Source: Thioalkalivibrio sulfidiphilus HL-EbGr7 (GTDB lineage Bacteria > Pseudomonadota > Gammaproteobacteria > Ectothiorhodospirales > Ectothiorhodospiraceae). Taken from it: DNA of 64,000 nt. A program made the position numbers and the translations under genes. The notes beneath the pieces were generated by a model. It had not been told where the DNA came from, ran no database searches, and was given only the letters and a program-made list of their open reading frames with translations. Positions 2,119 to 62,182 of the stretch are shown one piece after another. Location of the stretch: the NCBI RefSeq assembly GCF_000021985.1, contig NC_011901.1, positions 3,110,501-3,174,500 on the forward strand. The letters are read 5' to 3'. Numbering within the stretch: position 1 is the stretch's first letter; every line of letters begins with the position of its first letter.

Positions 2119-3117
2119 GTGACAGATCCCGACCGCGCCAGCCCCCTGTGGCTGGTGGACTCCAGCATCTACGTGTTCCGCGCCTGGTTCACCCTGCCCG
2201 AGGCCATCACCGACCGTGAGGGCCACCCGGCCAATGCGGTGACCGGTTTCGGCGAGTTCCTGGTGCGCCTGCTCACCCGGGCCGCGCCCGCGCCGGTGGT
2301 GTTCGCCTTCGACGAAAGCCTGGGCCAGTCCTACCGTCACGAGATCTACCCCGAGTACAAGGCCAATCGCCCGCCGGCCCCGGAATCCCTCAAGCGCCAG
2401 TTCCGCCAGTGCCGCGCCCTGGTCACTGCCCTGGGCTTTCCGGCCTTCTCCAGCCCCCGCTACGAGGCCGACGACATCATCGGCACCCTGACCGCCCGCC
2501 AGCAGGCCGCGGGCGGCAGCGTGCACCTGATCACCGCCGACAAGGACCTGACCCAGCTGGTGGGCCCCGGCGACCTGTGGTGGGAATTCCAGCAGGACCG
2601 GCGCCTGGACGCCCGGGGCGTGGAGAAGAAGCTGGGCGTGCGCCCGGAGCAGGTGGCCGATCAGCTGGCCCTGGCCGGCGACAAGGTGGACAACATCCCC
2701 GGCGTGCCCGGCATCGGCATGGCCACCGCCGCGCGCATCCTGCGCCGGTTCGGCGACCTGGACACGCTGTTTGCCGACACCGATGAGGTGGCGAAACTGC
2801 ACATCCGCGGCGCCAGGCGCCTGGCGGACCTGGTCCGCGAGCACGAGCACAGCGTGCGCCTCTCGCGTCGGCTCACCGGCATCCACTGCGACATCGAAGA
2901 CCTGCCGCAAGCCCTGGACCTCAGCCCCGCCGCCCCGGACCGCGCGGCGTTGACCGCGCTCCTGGATCAGCTCGGCATCGACGGCCCGCGCCGTGTGCGC
3001 TGGGAAGCGCTGATCGACAGGCTGGAAGACAATTCAAGATTCAAGATTCAAGATTCAAAATTCAAAATTCAAAATTCAAAGAACCACGACTCCACCCCTT
3101 TGAATCTTGAATCTTGA
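2119..3117 (+). CDS. 5'-3' exonuclease of the Pol I N-terminal / Xni type, with a repeat-encoded C-terminal tail
   Basis: Stand-alone flap/5' nuclease homologous to the N-terminal domain of DNA polymerase I. The PIN-like fold shows the early VDSS aspartate, the acidic YEADD and TADKD motifs, and a helix-3-turn-helix segment reading DNIPGVPGIG for DNA binding. The GTG at 2119 gives a normal start. The family domain ends near residue 303. The last 28 or so residues are encoded by the ATTCAAR heptad array at 3032-3147 and are low-complexity Lys/Ser/Gln, so they are probably an accidental extension. No polymerase domain follows. Xni (ExoIX) is the closest stand-alone model, but the assignment to that subfamily is tentative. 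Confidence 0.86.
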   Translation: MTDPDRASPLWLVDSSIYVFRAWFTLPEAITDREGHPANAVTGFGEFLVRLLTRAAPAPVVFAFDESLGQSYRHEIYPEYKANRPPAPESLKRQFRQCRALVTALGFPAFSSPRYEADDIIGTLTARQQAAGGSVHLITADKDLTQLVGPGDLWWEFQQDRRLDARGVEKKLGVRPEQVADQLALAGDKVDNIPGVPGIGMATAARILRRFGDLDTLFADTDEVAKLHIRGARRLADLVREHEHSVRLSRRLTGIHCDIEDLPQALDLSPAAPDRAALTALLDQLGIDGPRRVRWEALIDRLEDNSRFKIQDSKFKIQNSKNHDSTPLNLES

Positions 3118-3147
3118 ATTTTGAATTTTGAATCTTGAATTTTGAAT
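3032..3147. repeat. Palindromic heptad array, 7 + 7 copies of ATTCAAR / YTTGAAT
   Basis: Seven contiguous heptads (ATTCAAG x3, then ATTCAAA x4) occupy 3032-3080. After an 18-nt centre, seven inverse heptads (TTTGAAT or CTTGAAT) occupy 3099-3147. Copy number is equal in the two arms, but the G/A choice at the seventh base is not mirrored, so several paired units differ by one base. The left arm is read through by the exonuclease gene. The right arm ends three bases before the CobW start codon, leaving no obvious Shine-Dalgarno sequence. A 4 + 4 version of the same family lies at 22852-22937. Confidence 0.95.
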
Positions 3148-3150
3148 CCA

Positions 3151-3870
3151 ATGCCCATCCCCACCCACCTGATCACCGGCTTCCTCGGCGTCGGCAAGAC
3201 CACCGCCATCCGCCATCTGCTGGCCCATCGTCCGGCGGGCGAACGCTGGGCGGTGCTGGTCAACGAGTTCGGCCAGGTGGGCGTGGACGAACAACTGATG
3301 GAAGGCGAGGACGTGGCCATCCGCCAGGTGCCGGGCGGGTGTCTCTGCTGCGTCAGCAGCCAGGCCTTCACCGTGGGGCTCAACCGGCTCATCCGGGAGG
3401 AGCGCCCCGAACGCATCCTCATCGAACCCACCGGCCTGGGCCACCCGGCTCGGGTGATCGAGACCCTCACCGGCGAGTTCTACCGGCAGGTGCTGGACCT
3501 GGGCGCCGTGATCACCCTCATGGACGCCCGCCACCTGGCCTCGCCCCGGCACCGGGAGCACCCCACCTGGCAGGACCAGATCCGCCTGGCGGACGTGCTG
3601 GTGGCCAACAAGGCGGATCTGTACAGCGATGCAGAGCGGGAGGTCTTCCTGGACTTCGCCCGTACCCTGGATCCACCCAAGACCCGCACCGCCCTGGTCA
3701 GCCAGGGCACCCTGGACCCCGCCTGGCTGGACCTGCCAGCCGATCCACCGCGATCCGTTGAGGACACCCATGATCTACTTGGGGACATCCATCATCCTGA
3801 CAGTTCACTTGGGGACACCCATCATCCCCATCATCCTGGGCACCATGCGCATGAGGACGCGATCCGTTGA
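3151..3870 (+). CDS. CobW/P47K-type GTPase metallochaperone, N-terminal part of a gene broken by a 109-bp duplication
   Basis: G3E-family GTPase that delivers Zn or another metal to client proteins. Visible: Walker A GFLGVGKTT near the start, the metal-binding GGCLCC motif (about residue 65), and NKAD for guanine recognition. The ATG at 3151 is preferred over an in-frame TTG at 3142 that lies in a repeat arm. The frame runs into a His-rich linker with GDTHHP-like repeats and stops at 3870, before the CobW C-terminal domain. That domain follows in another frame at 3871-4303. Neighbours (DUF1007, NicO) fit a Zn/Ni/Co homeostasis cluster. A truncated GTPase domain may still be made. Confidence 0.85.
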   Translation: MPIPTHLITGFLGVGKTTAIRHLLAHRPAGERWAVLVNEFGQVGVDEQLMEGEDVAIRQVPGGCLCCVSSQAFTVGLNRLIREERPERILIEPTGLGHPARVIETLTGEFYRQVLDLGAVITLMDARHLASPRHREHPTWQDQIRLADVLVANKADLYSDAEREVFLDFARTLDPPKTRTALVSQGTLDPAWLDLPADPPRSVEDTHDLLGDIHHPDSSLGDTHHPHHPGHHAHEDAIR

Positions 3871-3979
3871 GGACACCCATGATCCACTTGGGGACATCCA
3901 TCATCCTGACAGTTCACTTGGGGACACCCATCATCCTCTTGGGGACACCCATCATCCTGGGCACCATGCGCATGAGGAC
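3752..3979 (+). repeat. 109-bp tandem duplication within the CobW His-rich linker
   Basis: A block starting GATCCGTTGAGGACACC begins at 3752 and again at 3861. The offset of 109 bp is 3 x 36 + 1, so the second copy is read in another frame. Copy 2 carries 12 extra bases (four codons) because an internal 21-nt unit encoding LGDTHHP is present once more. The joined copies read His-rich peptide in both frames. Removal of one 109-bp unit would join the GTPase domain to its C-terminal domain in frame. Confidence 0.93.
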
Positions 3980-9168: not shown

Positions 9169-9173
9169 GAACA

Positions 9174-9266
9174 GTGGCAAGTCTCAAGTGGCTAGTGGCT
9201 AGTGGCTAGTCGCAAGGAAAACCCGCAGTTGCCTTTCCTTGCCACTTGAGACTTGCCACTAGCCAC
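9174..9266. repeat. Palindromic heptad array of GTGGCWA / TWGCCAC words
   Basis: Left arm 9174-9215 holds six heptads of the pattern GTNNCWA, including three identical GTGGCTA units in a row. Right arm 9239-9266 holds four heptads of the inverse pattern. It sits between the slt stop and the globin stop, so it is the shared 3' region of two convergent genes. Confidence 0.93.
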
Positions 9267-9270
9267 TTCA

Positions 9271-11436: not shown

Positions 11437-11459
11437 ACCGGCCGGGGTTCGAGGTGGCA

Positions 11460-11543
11460 CGCGGAGATCGCAGAGGCGCAAAGAGCGCAATGAGTTTTTG
11501 ATTCCCTTCTCTTTGCGTTCTCTGCGTCTCTGCGACCTCCGCG
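11460..11543. repeat. Palindromic 8/9-mer array, 4 + 4 units (GCAGAGGC / TCTCTGCG type)
   Basis: Left arm (11460-11494) has four units beginning GCGGAGATC, GCAGAGGC, GCAAAGAGC. Right arm (11509-11543) has four inverse units CTCTTTGCG, TTCTCTGCG, TCTCTGCG, ACCTCCGCG. Unit length alternates between 8 and 9. The centre is a T-rich spacer. It lies between two convergent genes, the kinase and the mechanosensitive channel. Confidence 0.93.
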
Positions 11544-11576
11544 TTCACATCACCAAACCGTCCTGATAAACGATGC

Positions 11577-16230: not shown

Positions 16231-16403
16231 TGGTCCGCAAATGAACGCGAATAAACGCGAATTGATGCTCAAGCGCCGTGCCGCAAGGCCGGCAAAGATT
16301 TTGCCACGGACACAACGGAGTTATCTCAATGAAATGAGTTCAGGTCCTTGGGCGTTCGAATCTCTATCATTCCATTTGCGTTCATTCGCGTTCATTCGCG
16401 GAC
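16231..16403. repeat. Palindromic decamer array (GCGAATNAAC / GTTCATTCGC), 3 + 3 units
   Basis: Left arm from 16231 reads GGTCC followed by three 10-mers of the GCGAATAAAC type. Right arm ending near 16403 holds three inverse 10-mers, GTTCATTCGC twice in full, then GGACC. About 110 nt separate the arms, with no clear gene. The right arm supplies the rsmD stop codon and last residues. Confidence 0.9.
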
Positions 16404-16999
16404 CCCATCCCGATCGGCGCCGTGAGGAGATGCGCGCTGTCGCCGGCGCGGCCTTCACGGGCGATGCGCCAGCCCTCGGGCAGTGCGGGCGGCTGGCCGG
16501 AGGCGGCGTATTCCACATACACCCGCGCGCCGGGGCGCAGGCAGCGTCCCCGGGCAAGGCCTGCCAGCGCCATGCTCAGCAGGTCGCTGTGAAACGGCGG
16601 GTCCAGGAACACCAGATCGAAACCCTCGTCGCAGCGCGCCAGGTAGGCAAGCGCGTCGGCGGCGATGACCTCCACCCGGTCGGCCGCGCCGAGCAGTTGC
16701 ACCTGCTCGCGCAGGTGAGCCGCCACCCGCGGCGCCGCCTCCACCATCACCACCCGCGCCGCGCCCCGGGAGGCGGCCTCGAAACCGAGCCCGCCGGCGC
16801 CGGCGAACAGATCCAGGCAGCGGGCCCCGGGCACGATGCCCTGCAGCCAGTTGAACAGGGTCTCGCGCACCCGATCCGGCGTCGGCCGCAGCCCCGGCGC
16901 CGAAGGCACCGCGAGCCGCCGTCCGCGCCATTCCCCGGCGACGATACGCAAACGCCCCGGAGCACCGGGGCGTGGCTGGCTGGTGCGGCGTTGTTTCAT
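16382..16999 (-). CDS. rsmD: 16S rRNA (guanine966-N2)-methyltransferase
   Basis: SAM-dependent enzyme methylating G966 of 16S rRNA in the assembled 30S head. Visible: GRLRIVAGEWRGRRL, RPTPDRVRETLFNWL, SAM-binding LDLFAGAGGLGFEAASRGA, and catalytic DPPF. Length is 205 residues. The last nine or so residues (GMGSANERE) are encoded by the decamer palindrome 16231-16403, which also supplies the stop. Proximity to the M16 pair and ftsY is the usual gammaproteobacterial gene order. Confidence 0.92.
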   Translation of the reverse strand: MKQRRTSQPRPGAPGRLRIVAGEWRGRRLAVPSAPGLRPTPDRVRETLFNWLQGIVPGARCLDLFAGAGGLGFEAASRGAARVVMVEAAPRVAAHLREQVQLLGAADRVEVIAADALAYLARCDEGFDLVFLDPPFHSDLLSMALAGLARGRCLRPGARVYVEYAASGQPPALPEGWRIAREGRAGDSAHLLTAPIGMGSANERE

Positions 17000-17022
17000 G
17001 ATGAGACAAGACCTCGTTCGCC

Positions 17023-17179
17023 GCAGAGGCGCGAAGACGCGGAGGAAAAAACAACTGGACAGGATTTACATGATTGACATGATTTCAAGGCAGAAGCTTC
17101 AAGGCCAATGGATCAAATCCTGTTAATCATGTAAATCCTGTCAGATCCCTGGATTTCTCTGCGACTCCGCGCCTCTGCG
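17023..17179. repeat. Nested palindrome: octamer arms enclosing 9-mer arms
   Basis: Outer arms at 17023-17046 and 17155-17179 each have three 8- to 9-nt units of the GCAGAGGC / CCTCTGCG type. Inside them, 17059-17085 holds three 9-mers of the pattern ACAKGATTK, matched by three inverse 9-mers (AAATCCTGT type) at 17115-17141. The centre contains GAAGCTTC. The element fills nearly all of the 199-bp gap upstream of rsmD and downstream of the M16 genes. Confidence 0.94.
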
Positions 17180-17198
17180 GCAAAACCATCCCCGCGCT

Positions 17199-18515
17199 TC
17201 AGCCCTCACCACCCACGATCACCGTGACCATGCGCTCCGGATCGAGGCGGCGCTGGAAGGCGTCGCGGATGGTCCGTTCATTCACGGACTCCACGCGTTC
17301 ATTGAAACGGTCCAGGTAATCCAGGGGCAGGCCGTAGAAGCCCATCATCGCCAGGTTGTCCATCATGGCGCTGTTGGAGGCGATGCGCAGGGGGAAGCCG
17401 CCGGTGATGTTGAGCCTGGAGGCGCGCAGTTCGGTGCTGCTGGGGCCTTTCTCGCGGTACTCGGCGAGGATCTCCTGCATCACCTGGCGGGCCTCGTCGG
17501 CCTGGGCCACCTGGGTCTGTACGCCCATGATGAAGGGACCGTCCGCCTCCATGGGCATGAAGTAGCTGTACACGCTGTAGGCCAGGCCCCGGCGGCCACG
17601 CACCTCCTCGAACAGCCGCGAGGTGAAGCCGCCACCGCCGAGCACGTGGTTGCCCACGAACAGGGGGAAATAGTCCTCATCGCCACGGCGCATGCCCGGC
17701 TGGCCGATGAGCACGTGGGCCTGGGCCGAGGGGAAGGGCACGTGGATGGTGCGGGACTCCGTCAGGGGAGGCACCTCCGGCAACGGGGCCGCGGCACTGC
17801 CCTCGGGCAGCGCGGCGGCGATGCGCCCGGCGATGGCCTCGGCCTGGGCACGGTCGATGCCGCCCACCAGCACCAGCACGCCGTTGCGCGCCACGTAGAA
17901 CTCCCGGTGGAAGCCCACCACCTGTTCCCGGGTGATGGCGCGCACGCCGGCCTCGGTGCCCAGGGGCACGTTGGCGTAGGGGTGATCACCGAACACCGCC
18001 TCGAAGAAGCTGCGCTGAGCCACCGAACCGGGTCGCTGGGCCTCGGCATCCAGGGCCACCAGGGTCTGGCGCCGGCCGCGCTCAAGATCCCTTTCCGGGA
18101 AGCGCGGATCGCCCAGCACGGTGGTGAAGGTGTCCAGGGCCGTCTCCAGCCAGTCGGCCTCCGTGAGCGTGCGCAGGCTCAGGTGTGCCATATCGCGCAG
18201 GGCATCCGAACCGAACTGCGCACCCACGGATTCGAAACGCTCGGCGATGGTGTCCGCGTCCCAGTCGCCGGCACCGGTGTTCAGCAGCCCGTTGGTGAGC
18301 CGCGCGAGACCCGGGGCGTCCCCGTCCCGGGCGCTGCCGGCGCGAAACACCACGCGCAGGTCCAGCATGGGCAGTGCCGGCGCGGGCATGAAGTAGACCT
18401 TGAGCCCGTTGTCGGTCTCCCAGTGTTCGATGGCCGGGTTGGCGTGAACCGGCGCGATGAGCAGCAACGCCAGGAGAATGCCGATCAGGATGCGCATGGA
18501 TCCGAGTTGTTTCAT
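17199..18515 (-). CDS. M16-family peptidase homolog lacking the zinc motif
   Basis: Secreted 438-residue protein with a signal peptide and two M16 half-domains. The region where HxxEH should lie reads LARLTNGLLNTGA, so it cannot bind catalytic zinc. The C-terminal half keeps the G-GGFTSRLFEEVRGRRGLAYS segment that supplies substrate-binding Arg/Tyr in this family. M16B enzymes often work as pairs of one active and one inactive subunit, and the next gene upstream (18666-20066) is the active partner. The two genes are in the same direction, separated by a REP-like element. Confidence 0.88.
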   Translation of the reverse strand: MKQLGSMRILIGILLALLLIAPVHANPAIEHWETDNGLKVYFMPAPALPMLDLRVVFRAGSARDGDAPGLARLTNGLLNTGAGDWDADTIAERFESVGAQFGSDALRDMAHLSLRTLTEADWLETALDTFTTVLGDPRFPERDLERGRRQTLVALDAEAQRPGSVAQRSFFEAVFGDHPYANVPLGTEAGVRAITREQVVGFHREFYVARNGVLVLVGGIDRAQAEAIAGRIAAALPEGSAAAPLPEVPPLTESRTIHVPFPSAQAHVLIGQPGMRRGDEDYFPLFVGNHVLGGGGFTSRLFEEVRGRRGLAYSVYSYFMPMEADGPFIMGVQTQVAQADEARQVMQEILAEYREKGPSSTELRASRLNITGGFPLRIASNSAMMDNLAMMGFYGLPLDYLDRFNERVESVNERTIRDAFQRRLDPERMVTVIVGGEG

Positions 18516-18570: not shown

Positions 18571-18639
18571 GTAGGTCGGGCTTCAGCCCGACAGCGGCGT
18601 CAGAGGACGCCACACATGTCGGGCTGAAGCCCGATCTAC
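18571..18639. repeat. BIME: inverted pair of REP hairpins with GTAG heads
   Basis: GTAG at 18571 is followed by the hairpin GTCGGGC-TTCA-GCCCGAC. The inverse copy at 18617-18639 ends in CTAC. A small hairpin GGCGTC/GACGCC lies between them. This matches the REP/BIME layout associated with RAYT transposases. A partial REP word, GTAGGTCGGGC, is also seen downstream of rpoH near 23911. Confidence 0.85.
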
Positions 18640-18665
18640 GCGCCTGACACCTCACGCCTGACGGC

Positions 18666-22851: not shown

Positions 22852-22937
22852 GTTCAAGATTCAACATTCAAAATTCAAAGGAAAGACAAGGACCTGCCAC
22901 CTCACCACCTTTGAATCTTGAATCTTGAATCTTGAAT
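22852..22937. repeat. Palindromic heptad array, 4 + 4 copies of the ATTCAAR family
   Basis: Four heptads (GTTCAAG, ATTCAAC, ATTCAAA, ATTCAAA) at 22852-22879 face four inverse heptads (TTTGAAT, then CTTGAAT x3) at 22910-22937, with a 30-nt centre. Same family as 3032-3147 but with four units per arm instead of seven. It sits between ftsX and the rpoH promoter. Confidence 0.93.
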
Positions 22938-22962
22938 TTTCCCTCCGGAACTCCCTCCCCCT

Positions 22963-49467: not shown

Positions 49468-49471
49468 AGCA

Positions 49472-49579
49472 GTGGCAAGTGGCAAGTGGCTAGTTGCATG
49501 GCAAAACCACTTCCTTGCCCTCCCGAATATCCGGGGTCACAAGGCTGTTCCTTGCCACTTGAGACCAGCCACTGGCTAC
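49472..49579. repeat. Palindromic heptad array, 4 + 4 (GTGGCAA / TTGCCAC family), gltD-hemE gap
   Basis: Four heptads (GTGGCAA twice, GTGGCTA, GTTGCAT) at 49472-49499 face four inverse heptads at 49552-49579 across a 52-nt centre. Same family as 9174-9266. It ends seven bases before the hemE ATG. Confidence 0.92.
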
Positions 49580-50642: not shown

Positions 50643-50729
50643 GAAGTTAAAAGTAAGAAGTGTGAATTGGGAGGTGCGAAGTGAAGGCTTTCAATTCCCA
50701 CTTCCCAATTCACACTTCTCACTTCCCAG
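50639..50729. repeat. Thirteen heptads in phase: palindromic array of 7 + 6 units
   Basis: From 50639 to 50729 every seventh base starts a new unit: seven of the form GTNNGAA (left, 50639-50687) then six of the form TTCNNAM (right, 50688-50729), with no extra spacer. The core GAAGTGTGAATTGGGA has an exact inverse. The hemE stop is in the first unit and the stop of the minus-strand gene at 50691 is in the right arm. Confidence 0.93.
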
Positions 50730-61047: not shown

Positions 61048-62133
61048 ATGCAGACCCTCACCGTAGAACTCGGCGACCGCAGCTACCCCATCCACATCGG
61101 CCGTGGCCTGCTGGACGATCCGACCCGCTTCGCGCCGCGCATCCGTGGCAAGCGGGTGATGATCGTCACTAATGAGACCGTCGCCCCCCTCTACCTGGAC
61201 CGCCTCAAGCGCACTTTGGGTGACTTCCGAGTGGAGGCGGTCATCCTGCCCGACGGGGAGGAATACAAGACCATGGAGACCCTCAATCAGGTCTATACCG
61301 CCCTGCTCGAGGCTCGCTTCGACCGCAAGGCGACCCTGGTGGCCCTGGGCGGCGGCGTGATCGGCGACATCACCGGCTTTGCCGCGGCCAGCTATCAGCG
61401 GGGTGTGGACTTCATCCAGGTGCCCACCACCCTGCTTTCCCAGGTGGACTCCTCCGTGGGTGGCAAGACCGGCGTCAACCATCCGCTGGGCAAGAACATG
61501 ATCGGCGCCTTCCACCAGCCCCGCTGCGTGGTGATCGACACCGACACCCTGGACACCCTGCCGGACCGGGAACTGCGTGCCGGCATTGCCGAGGTCATCA
61601 AGTACGGGCTGATCTGCGACCGGCCGTTCTTCGACTGGCTGGAAGCAAACATGGACCGCCTGCTGGCCCGCGACCCCGAGGCCCTGGCCTATGCCATTCA
61701 CCGCTCCTGCCATGACAAGGCCCAGGTGGTGGCCGAGGACGAGCGGGAAGGCGGACGCCGCGCCATCCTCAACCTGGGCCATACCTTCGGCCACGCCATC
61801 GAGACCGGCATGGGCTATGGTGTGTGGCTGCATGGCGAGGGCGTGGCCACGGGCATGGTCATGGCCGCGCGCATGTCCCGGCGCCTGGGCTGGCTGGATG
61901 CGGAGGATCTGCATCGCACCGAGGCGCTGATCGCCAGGGCAGGCTTGCCGGTCGAGCCGCCTCCCGAGATCACCGCGGAGCGTTTCGCGGAACTCATGTC
62001 CGTGGACAAGAAGGTCCTGGACGGCCAGCTACGCCTGGTACTGTTGCGCGGCATCGGCGAGGCGGTGGTTACCGCCGATTTCGATCCAGCGGCCCTGGAC
62101 GCCACGCTGAATCAGGTAGGAAGTGGGAATTGA
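61048..62133 (+). CDS. aroB: 3-Dehydroquinate synthase
   Basis: NAD- and Zn-dependent enzyme of the shikimate pathway. 361 residues; [25 protein letters not shown] (NAD), and [19 protein letters not shown] and [12 protein letters not shown] with metal ligands. The stop codon is in the left arm of the heptad element 62116-62182, which gives the last residues (VGSGN). Confidence 0.97.
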
Positions 62134-62182
62134 GAAGTGCGAAATTCTTCCCACCTCCCACTTCCTACTTCTCACTTCCCAC
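62116..62182. repeat. Palindromic heptad array, 4 + 5 units, between aroB and the dGTPase-like gene
   Basis: Four heptads of the form KTNNGAA (62116-62143), four bases, then five of the form YTCNNAC (62148-62182). The array ends at the base before the dgt ATG and contains the aroB stop, so it occupies the whole intercistronic region and the position of the ribosome-binding site. Confidence 0.92.

Follow-up and report, generated by a model that had tools for sequence, protein, structure and literature searches.

The nearest published relatives of the element described here are the repeat classes 1 to 4 of Geobacter metallireducens, arrays of three to five tandem units of 7 to 9 nucleotides (nt) that are paired on opposite strands (PMC2700814). 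Paired opposite-strand units, a variable distance between them, tens of copies per class, and an intergenic position are common to both, and we also count it as a likeness that four sites are common to classes 1 and 2. Indeed, the two-layer element studied here (the composite) likewise consists of two tandem arrays of 7- to 9-nt units on opposite strands at a variable distance. However, the words of G. metallireducens are different, and a fixed two-layer unit, inversion, slot swapping, and a cross-phylum composite are not reported in the portion of that paper available to us.

Other known systems share single features with the composite. In the Nostoc intron hairpins, degenerate tandem heptanucleotide words on both sides pair with each other, and the number of units varies between strains; the accessible text, however, describes a single locus inside an intron, with 7-nt words only and with neither dispersed copies nor a nested second word (PMC3488679). 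REP and REPIN sequences, which are accompanied by RAYT genes, are dispersed intergenic hairpins formed by inverted pairs and occur in the very species studied here (PMC3116915, PMC3733652). The composite is also an inverted pair that forms a hairpin and is dispersed between genes. As presented in the available sections of those papers, REP/REPIN sequences are tagged by GTAG, lack tandem words, and lie beside RAYT genes, whereas the composite shares none of these traits. The heptameric GGGAATC repeats of Xanthomonas are intergenic arrays of a 7-nt word, some of them in convergent pairs, but the excerpts accessible to us characterize them as G-quadruplex words mainly in single arrays (PMC4692102).

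A further comparison concerns quasipalindromes. According to the parts of these reports at our disposal, a template switch from one short inverted repeat to its partner turns the spacer around and homogenizes the arms (PMC8604942), and hairpins can be both created and repaired in this way (PMC8794818). Inverted arms that homogenize and turn the spacer are the likeness to the composite, but those sites are single short inverted repeats, while here a dispersed two-layer family was found in which both layers turn. In our search of the open journal literature, no description of the composite was found, which argues weakly that it has not been described before. When exact words were searched, six long ones had no occurrence, and six shorter ones occurred in 20 papers, of which the 15 listed deal, by their titles, with other matters. 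In general, the geometry is known in kind, whereas the fixed order of the two layers, their separate turning, and the reach across phyla appear to be new.

Architecture and folding of the window element

The window is the whole stretch of DNA that was analyzed, 64,000 nucleotides from the sulfur bacterium Thioalkalivibrio sulfidiphilus HL-EbGr7, whose genome (G000) comprises a single contig of 3,464,554 bases. The true extent of the element in the window is approximately 17020-17181, slightly wider than the 17023-17179 of the preliminary description. Sequence reading and an inverted-repeat search confirmed that 8-nt arms lie outside and 9-nt arms inside at 17021-17180 and that each of the four arms holds three units, both as first described. 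The left outer arm (17021-17044, plus strand) is formed by the 8-nt units CCGCAGAG GCGCGAAG ACGCGGAG and is separated by the spacer GAAAAAACAACTG (17045-17057) from the left inner arm (17058-17084, plus strand), which is formed by the 9-nt units GACAGGATT TACATGATT GACATGATT. Beyond the centre (17085-17115), the right inner arm (17116-17142, minus strand) with the units AATCCTGTT AATCATGTA AATCCTGTC is followed by the spacer AGATCCCTGGATTT (17143-17156) and the right outer arm (17157-17180, minus strand) with the units CTCTGCGA CTCCGCGC CTCTGCGG. The GAAGCTTC word that had been named as the centre does lie near the middle, at 17093-17100; however, the centre differs from those of the other copies, so this word is a property of the window copy only.

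The element is about 160 bp long, has inverted arms that reach both ends, and has no coding capacity, which places it within the size (100-400 bp) and TIR definition of a MITE. On one side lies the gene for the 16S rRNA methyltransferase RsmD (16382-16999, minus strand; TIGR00095, 164.5 bits against a cut-off of 117.5), the start of which faces the element. On the other side, the element starts 15-18 nt behind the stop codon of a gene for an M16-peptidase-like protein (17199-18515, minus strand; YfmF family, E value of 1.2e-15, below the family's cut-off). As RNA, the element has a predicted fold of -90.5 kcal/mol (z -9.0), and as DNA, one of -51.9 (z -8.3); in both cases, 0 of 200 shuffles folded as well. 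No match to known RNA families of Rfam was obtained in the window.

A dispersed family with a fixed order of layers

Further nested cases, on which the preliminary description had made its reading depend, were sought in the genome and found, as copies of the same nest and as other nests. With the element as the query, 90 matches at E values up to 10, merged by hand over both strands, gave 40 places in G000 that hold the composite; since 40 of 148 candidates were scored, the copy number is at least 40. The common layout is TGCCGCAGAG-type 8-mers, a spacer, GACAGGATT-type 9-mers, a variable centre, and the mirror image. From the 40 copies, 35 centres, 28 sets of inner arms, and 23 sets of outer arms were used for comparison. 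The 56 arm ends of the family have GCCGC in common, which was the search key itself; outside it, conservation drops within about 3 bases, and no conserved tag lies beyond.

The order of the two layers is fixed. When GCRGAG followed by 9-mers was used as the pattern, with overlapping matches counted apart, the 8-outside/9-inside order was matched 94 times in G000, 74 times in its near relative G003, and 14 times in G001, with no match in G002 or G004. In contrast, the opposite order was matched once in G003 and never in the other four genomes. In 13 other composite genomes, which were picked for holding the forward order, that order occurred 125 times and the reverse 9 times, several of the 9 resembling chance six-mers. 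Such a fixed order indicates that the nest spreads or is inherited as one unit. For the 8/9 nest, it leads us to reject an origin by chance, in which one family would have inserted into the other without regard to its words. In addition, the third inner unit is asymmetric, with ATG in one arm and AGG in the other, and this asymmetry recurs in both orientations, which argues that the copies share an ancestor.

These results bear on two earlier proposals. The preliminary description took the nesting of unlike families as support for a shared mechanism that does not depend on the word sequence. With orders of 94 versus 0 in G000 and 74 versus 1 in G003, this inference from nesting fails here; what does speak for a mechanism of that kind is that the 8-nt and 9-nt layers are inverted separately (see below). 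It was also proposed to test whether inner elements lie at the centre more often than random insertion predicts. The inner part is indeed central, the median difference between left and right arm-plus-spacer lengths being 5 nt (23 copies), but as the copies are related, their central position is no gauge of insertion.

Other inverted tandem-word elements

The composite is part of a larger population. A detector of inverted tandem arms found 51 elements, that of the window included, in an even 464-kb sample of G000, compared with a mean of 0.33 in three Markov-resampled versions and 0 in 100 kb of Escherichia coli. The period was 7 nt in 23 elements, 8 nt in 14, 9 nt in 11, 6 nt in 2, and 10 nt in 1, and the words included ATTCAAR, AGTGGCW, GAAGTGGGAA, AAGAGGC, CGCAGAGR, CGCAAAGR, CACGGRG, and CACAGAGGT. 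Nests other than the 8/9 composite were also present. The site L037 is a three-layer nest with 7-nt words outermost, then 8-nt words, and 9-nt words innermost, and CGC-type 8-mers surround CACGG-type 8-mers in L078 (9821-10001) and L093 (7432-7602).

Eight further elements with 7-, 8/9-, or 10-nt units were noticed in the window, at 3032-3147, 9173-9267, 11455-11547, 16236-16400, 22853-22940, 49471-49570, 50644-50728, and 62116-62182. Unit numbers changed from 7+7 in G000 to 4+4 in G003 in the element at 3032 and from 4+4 to 9+3 in that at 22853. The window also contains GTAG-type REP palindromes at 18571-18641 (GTAGGTCGGGCTTCAGCCCGAC and an inverted mate) and a 51-bp tandem repeat containing the words GGGGACA/CCCATCATCC at 3758-3959, both of which are shorter in G003. 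Elsewhere, an inverted tandem element of CAAGATA words (L034, 50-134) lies less than 1.5 kb from a Y1_Tnp gene, the sole one of the five Y1_Tnp loci of G000 that has both arms.

Location behind stop codons

The gene context of the 40 sites was determined with a simple ORF caller. Genes flanking the composite were co-directional at 26 sites, convergent at 11, and divergent at 2, and one site lay inside an ORF. All 26 co-directional sites were nearer to the upstream stop than to the next start (median, 12 versus 42 nt), and most copies lay 5-30 nt behind a stop codon. This location suggests a role of the hairpin at transcript ends. To judge from position, the hairpin is plausibly tolerated or of use at the ends of transcripts or genes.

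Inversion in place

When orthologous sites were matched by their flanks, 31 of the 40 G000 sites could be compared with G003, typically at a flank identity of 92-98%. The same core was present in both genomes at 18 sites; its orientation was conserved at 13 (12 by computation, L068 by inspection) and reversed at 5 (the window copy, L041, L043, L050, and L071). In the window copy, the G003 core is about 99% alike once turned, and the flanks are collinear; the left spacer of one genome is the reverse complement of the right spacer of the other, and vice versa. The spacers between the 8-mers and 9-mers are likewise inverted at four of the five flipped sites, which points to a crossover within the 8-nt arms by which the whole element was flipped. 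In L041, the spacers are direct and the centre alone is turned, as a crossover in the 9-nt arms, turning only the inner layer, would leave it. The two layers can therefore be inverted in place separately. As G003 is a draft of 70 contigs, with the copy L064 at contig ends, single flips there could be assembly errors. Among the few scorable sites of the 7-nt families, no flip was seen.

At the window site, there are 3+3 8-mer units in G000 versus 4+2 in G003. In this one case, the change is as expected from an exchange between arms that were out of register. The remaining sites in the comparison had changed further. A different 9-mer core was found at seven (L037, L039, L042, L052, L059, L060, and L066) and a whole element of another word family at three (L036, L040, and L058), L045 was a half element in this comparison, and L056 and L069 were left unclassified. 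In L069 (1450-1590), the inner array counts 2-3 9-mer units in G000 but about eight in one arm of the G003 ortholog (in L214).

Local inverted copying and slot turnover

Within G000, some neighboring copies have their centres in common, in inverted orientation. Among the 595 pairs formed by 35 centres, 4 were alike beyond every shuffled pair, and three of these lay 1.4, 2.3, and 3.9 kb apart, all three inverted. Counted from positions, only four site pairs in all lie within 4 kb (Fisher P value of 5e-7). The inner core alone is inverted in L040/L044, and the whole element in L047/L048 and L045/L062. Because G000 is one contig, these paralogue inversions cannot be explained by the draft assembly of G003. 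In G003, a composite copy lies 1 kb from its twin, and the corresponding slot of G000 is occupied by a pure 8-mer element. Copying to nearby slots thus involves whole units, with centre and spacers included.

The slots themselves change occupants. The window's own slot holds CTCTGTGCC arrays in G002, CCTCTGTGA arrays in G001, and 7-mers in G004. For the ortholog comparison above, the G003 stretches were mostly taken around G003 matches, so empty slots are undercounted there; an even sample was obtained from three syntenic blocks with 32 G000 slots. Compared with G003, 18 slots were the same, 2 were inverted, 9 held other or altered elements (several being the same family with changed arms), and 1 was different, while the remaining 2 were marked empty but on reading held another element or half an element. 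One clean filled/empty pair was found, for the pure 8-mer element at 11455 in the window, and it showed no target duplication. The gaps behind genes are refilled by other word families.

Mechanism and alternative explanations

At a probability of roughly 0.6, we read the composite as a dispersed two-layer hairpin that is flipped and locally copied in inverted form by polymerase template switching between its inverted arms and that is kept at gene ends. A DNA polymerase would switch template between the inverted arms at the replication fork. A switch within one site would invert the spacer in place, as observed at 5 of the 18 same-core sites, and a switch to a neighbor kilobases away would lay down an inverted copy that overwrites the previous occupant. 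Tandem units would be good switch points, and slippage by whole units would turn 3+3 into 4+2, as at the window site. Copies would be retained at gene ends, where a strong hairpin may be tolerated or useful, for the transcript end or for protection of the mRNA 3' end. If this is right, the intergenic hairpins of bacteria include a large class (about 11 per 100 kb here) that is constantly turning, copying locally, and being replaced without a known mobile gene, and these dozens of concentric inverted repeats are a natural set for counting template switching.

As the mechanism of turning, template switching is moderately likely. The inner arms of a copy match each other no better than swapped arms do (0.906 versus 0.903; P = 0.30), so the homogenization of arms is only weakly seen, which counts against template switching. 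By single units, unit 2 does match better (P = 0.0008), unlike unit 3 (P = 0.99); covariation of the arms as proof of selection on pairing was therefore dismissed, being seen in unit 2 only. The flips may also come from RecA recombination or an invertase. Template switching covers the turning, the unit changes, and the local copying, but not the entry into the genome or the presence in other phyla. Loss of the palindrome nuclease SbcD was considered as well. No SbcD scored over the family cut-off in any of the 5 genus genomes (G000-G004) or the 13 other composite genomes (G005-G017), nor in 42 of 47 family genomes. However, among sister-genus genomes that lack such elements, three have no SbcD (G018, G022, and G027) and four have it (G019, G024, G025, and G026), so that SbcD showed no link to element density, and the candidate was rejected; this test covered 80 kb per sister-genus genome, and G020, G021, and G023, with a contig C1 of about 1 kb, were dropped.

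A nonautonomous MITE or REPIN that a Y1 (REP-associated) transposase mobilizes in the form of a single-stranded hairpin would be expected in either orientation and without target duplication. The composite is palindromic, 160 bp long, intergenic, and present in many copies, G000 has five Y1_Tnp genes, and the one filled/empty pair, although of a pure 8-mer relative, is free of a target duplication; moreover, GTAG REPs and RAYT genes are on record for T. sulfidiphilus in the parts of the papers seen (PMC3733652, PMC3116915). Nevertheless, we consider this origin unlikely: none of the five Y1_Tnp loci has 8-nt or 9-nt arrays within 1.5 kb, a GTAG (or CGTC) end tag is absent from the 56 arm ends, and inversion of the inner layer alone is left unaccounted for by a Y1 model. 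Nor does gene presence follow the elements, since 43 of the 47 family genomes carry Y1 genes, yet seven sister-genus genomes (80 kb each) lack the element, and G002 and G004 have Y1 genes but no composite. With neither neighborhood nor such a link, a RAYT/Y1 transposase was rejected as the mover. Recombinase-driven, site-specific inversion with a switching role (an inverton) would agree with in-place inversion at several loci, but the number of sites (at least 40), the variability of their arms, the altered unit numbers at one of them, and a second flipping layer of unrelated words make it the least probable of the explanations.

By analogy with G. metallireducens, where the available text proposes arrays of 8-, 9-, and 7-nt repeats with the same geometry as global sites of the IHF/HU type (PMC2700814), the paired tandem 7- to 9-nt sites on opposite strands might bind a nucleoid or regulator protein, turning and swapping being by-products of repeat instability. 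Copies lie behind stop codons rather than before starts, however, and slots swap unrelated words between sister strains, which a word-reading protein would not tolerate, so such binding is an improbable explanation. Word-templated synthesis would need no transposable unit: at a break, an enzyme would extend both ends with tandem words, rejoining would produce inverted arms, and a later break at the hairpin tip would give the inner layer. Such a process would cover the inverted tandem arms, the difference between the words, the central nesting, and the lack of relation among the centres. We regard it as very improbable, because the order of the two words is fixed, the ATG/AGG third inner unit in both orientations indicates a common ancestor, and whole units are copied with their centres and spacers.

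Occurrence in other phyla

The left-half pattern (8-mers then 9-mers) was searched in 84,980 species, each represented by one genome, and was found in 49 stretches. By record title, 16 of these belong to T. sulfidiphilus ALJ17, 2 to T. denitrificans, 22 to Verrucomicrobiota-named records, 7 to uncultured organisms without a phylum, and 1 each to Nitrospinae and Muproteobacteria. The Verrucomicrobiota-named records include Kiritimatiellae, Lentisphaerae, Pedosphaera, and others; we take the first two to be placed within Verrucomicrobiota. Several of the distant stretches, such as L156 and L159, have the full two-layer mirror form. Such elements were absent from the seven sister-genus genomes of the home family, at 80 kb each. 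Patchy occurrence together with common words suggests horizontal spread. If our reading is right, it poses the question of how an identical pair of words, identically ordered, reached both Gammaproteobacteria and Verrucomicrobiota. It is possible, although we hold this tentatively and at a low probability, that the two-layer word-array hairpin is its own kind of mobile unit, one that lacks its own transposase gene yet passes between phyla, being carried from genome to genome and copied inside each via its hairpin arms, with both layers flipping freely and slots being refilled by rival word families.

In Kiritimatiellae-type records, long frames without stops (309-848 codons, one strand), which are likely protein genes, enclose the composite, namely, at L135 3800-4010, L143 3740-3900, L158 2760-2920, L139 1750-1870, and L165 4740-4850. 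These are possibly in-frame insertions. The flanks are similar among L135, L143, and L158. In Pedosphaera (L117, approximately 3700-3900), 8-mers and ACAGGATT, AAAGGGACC, and CACGGACG 9-mers stand in a row with no mirror symmetry.
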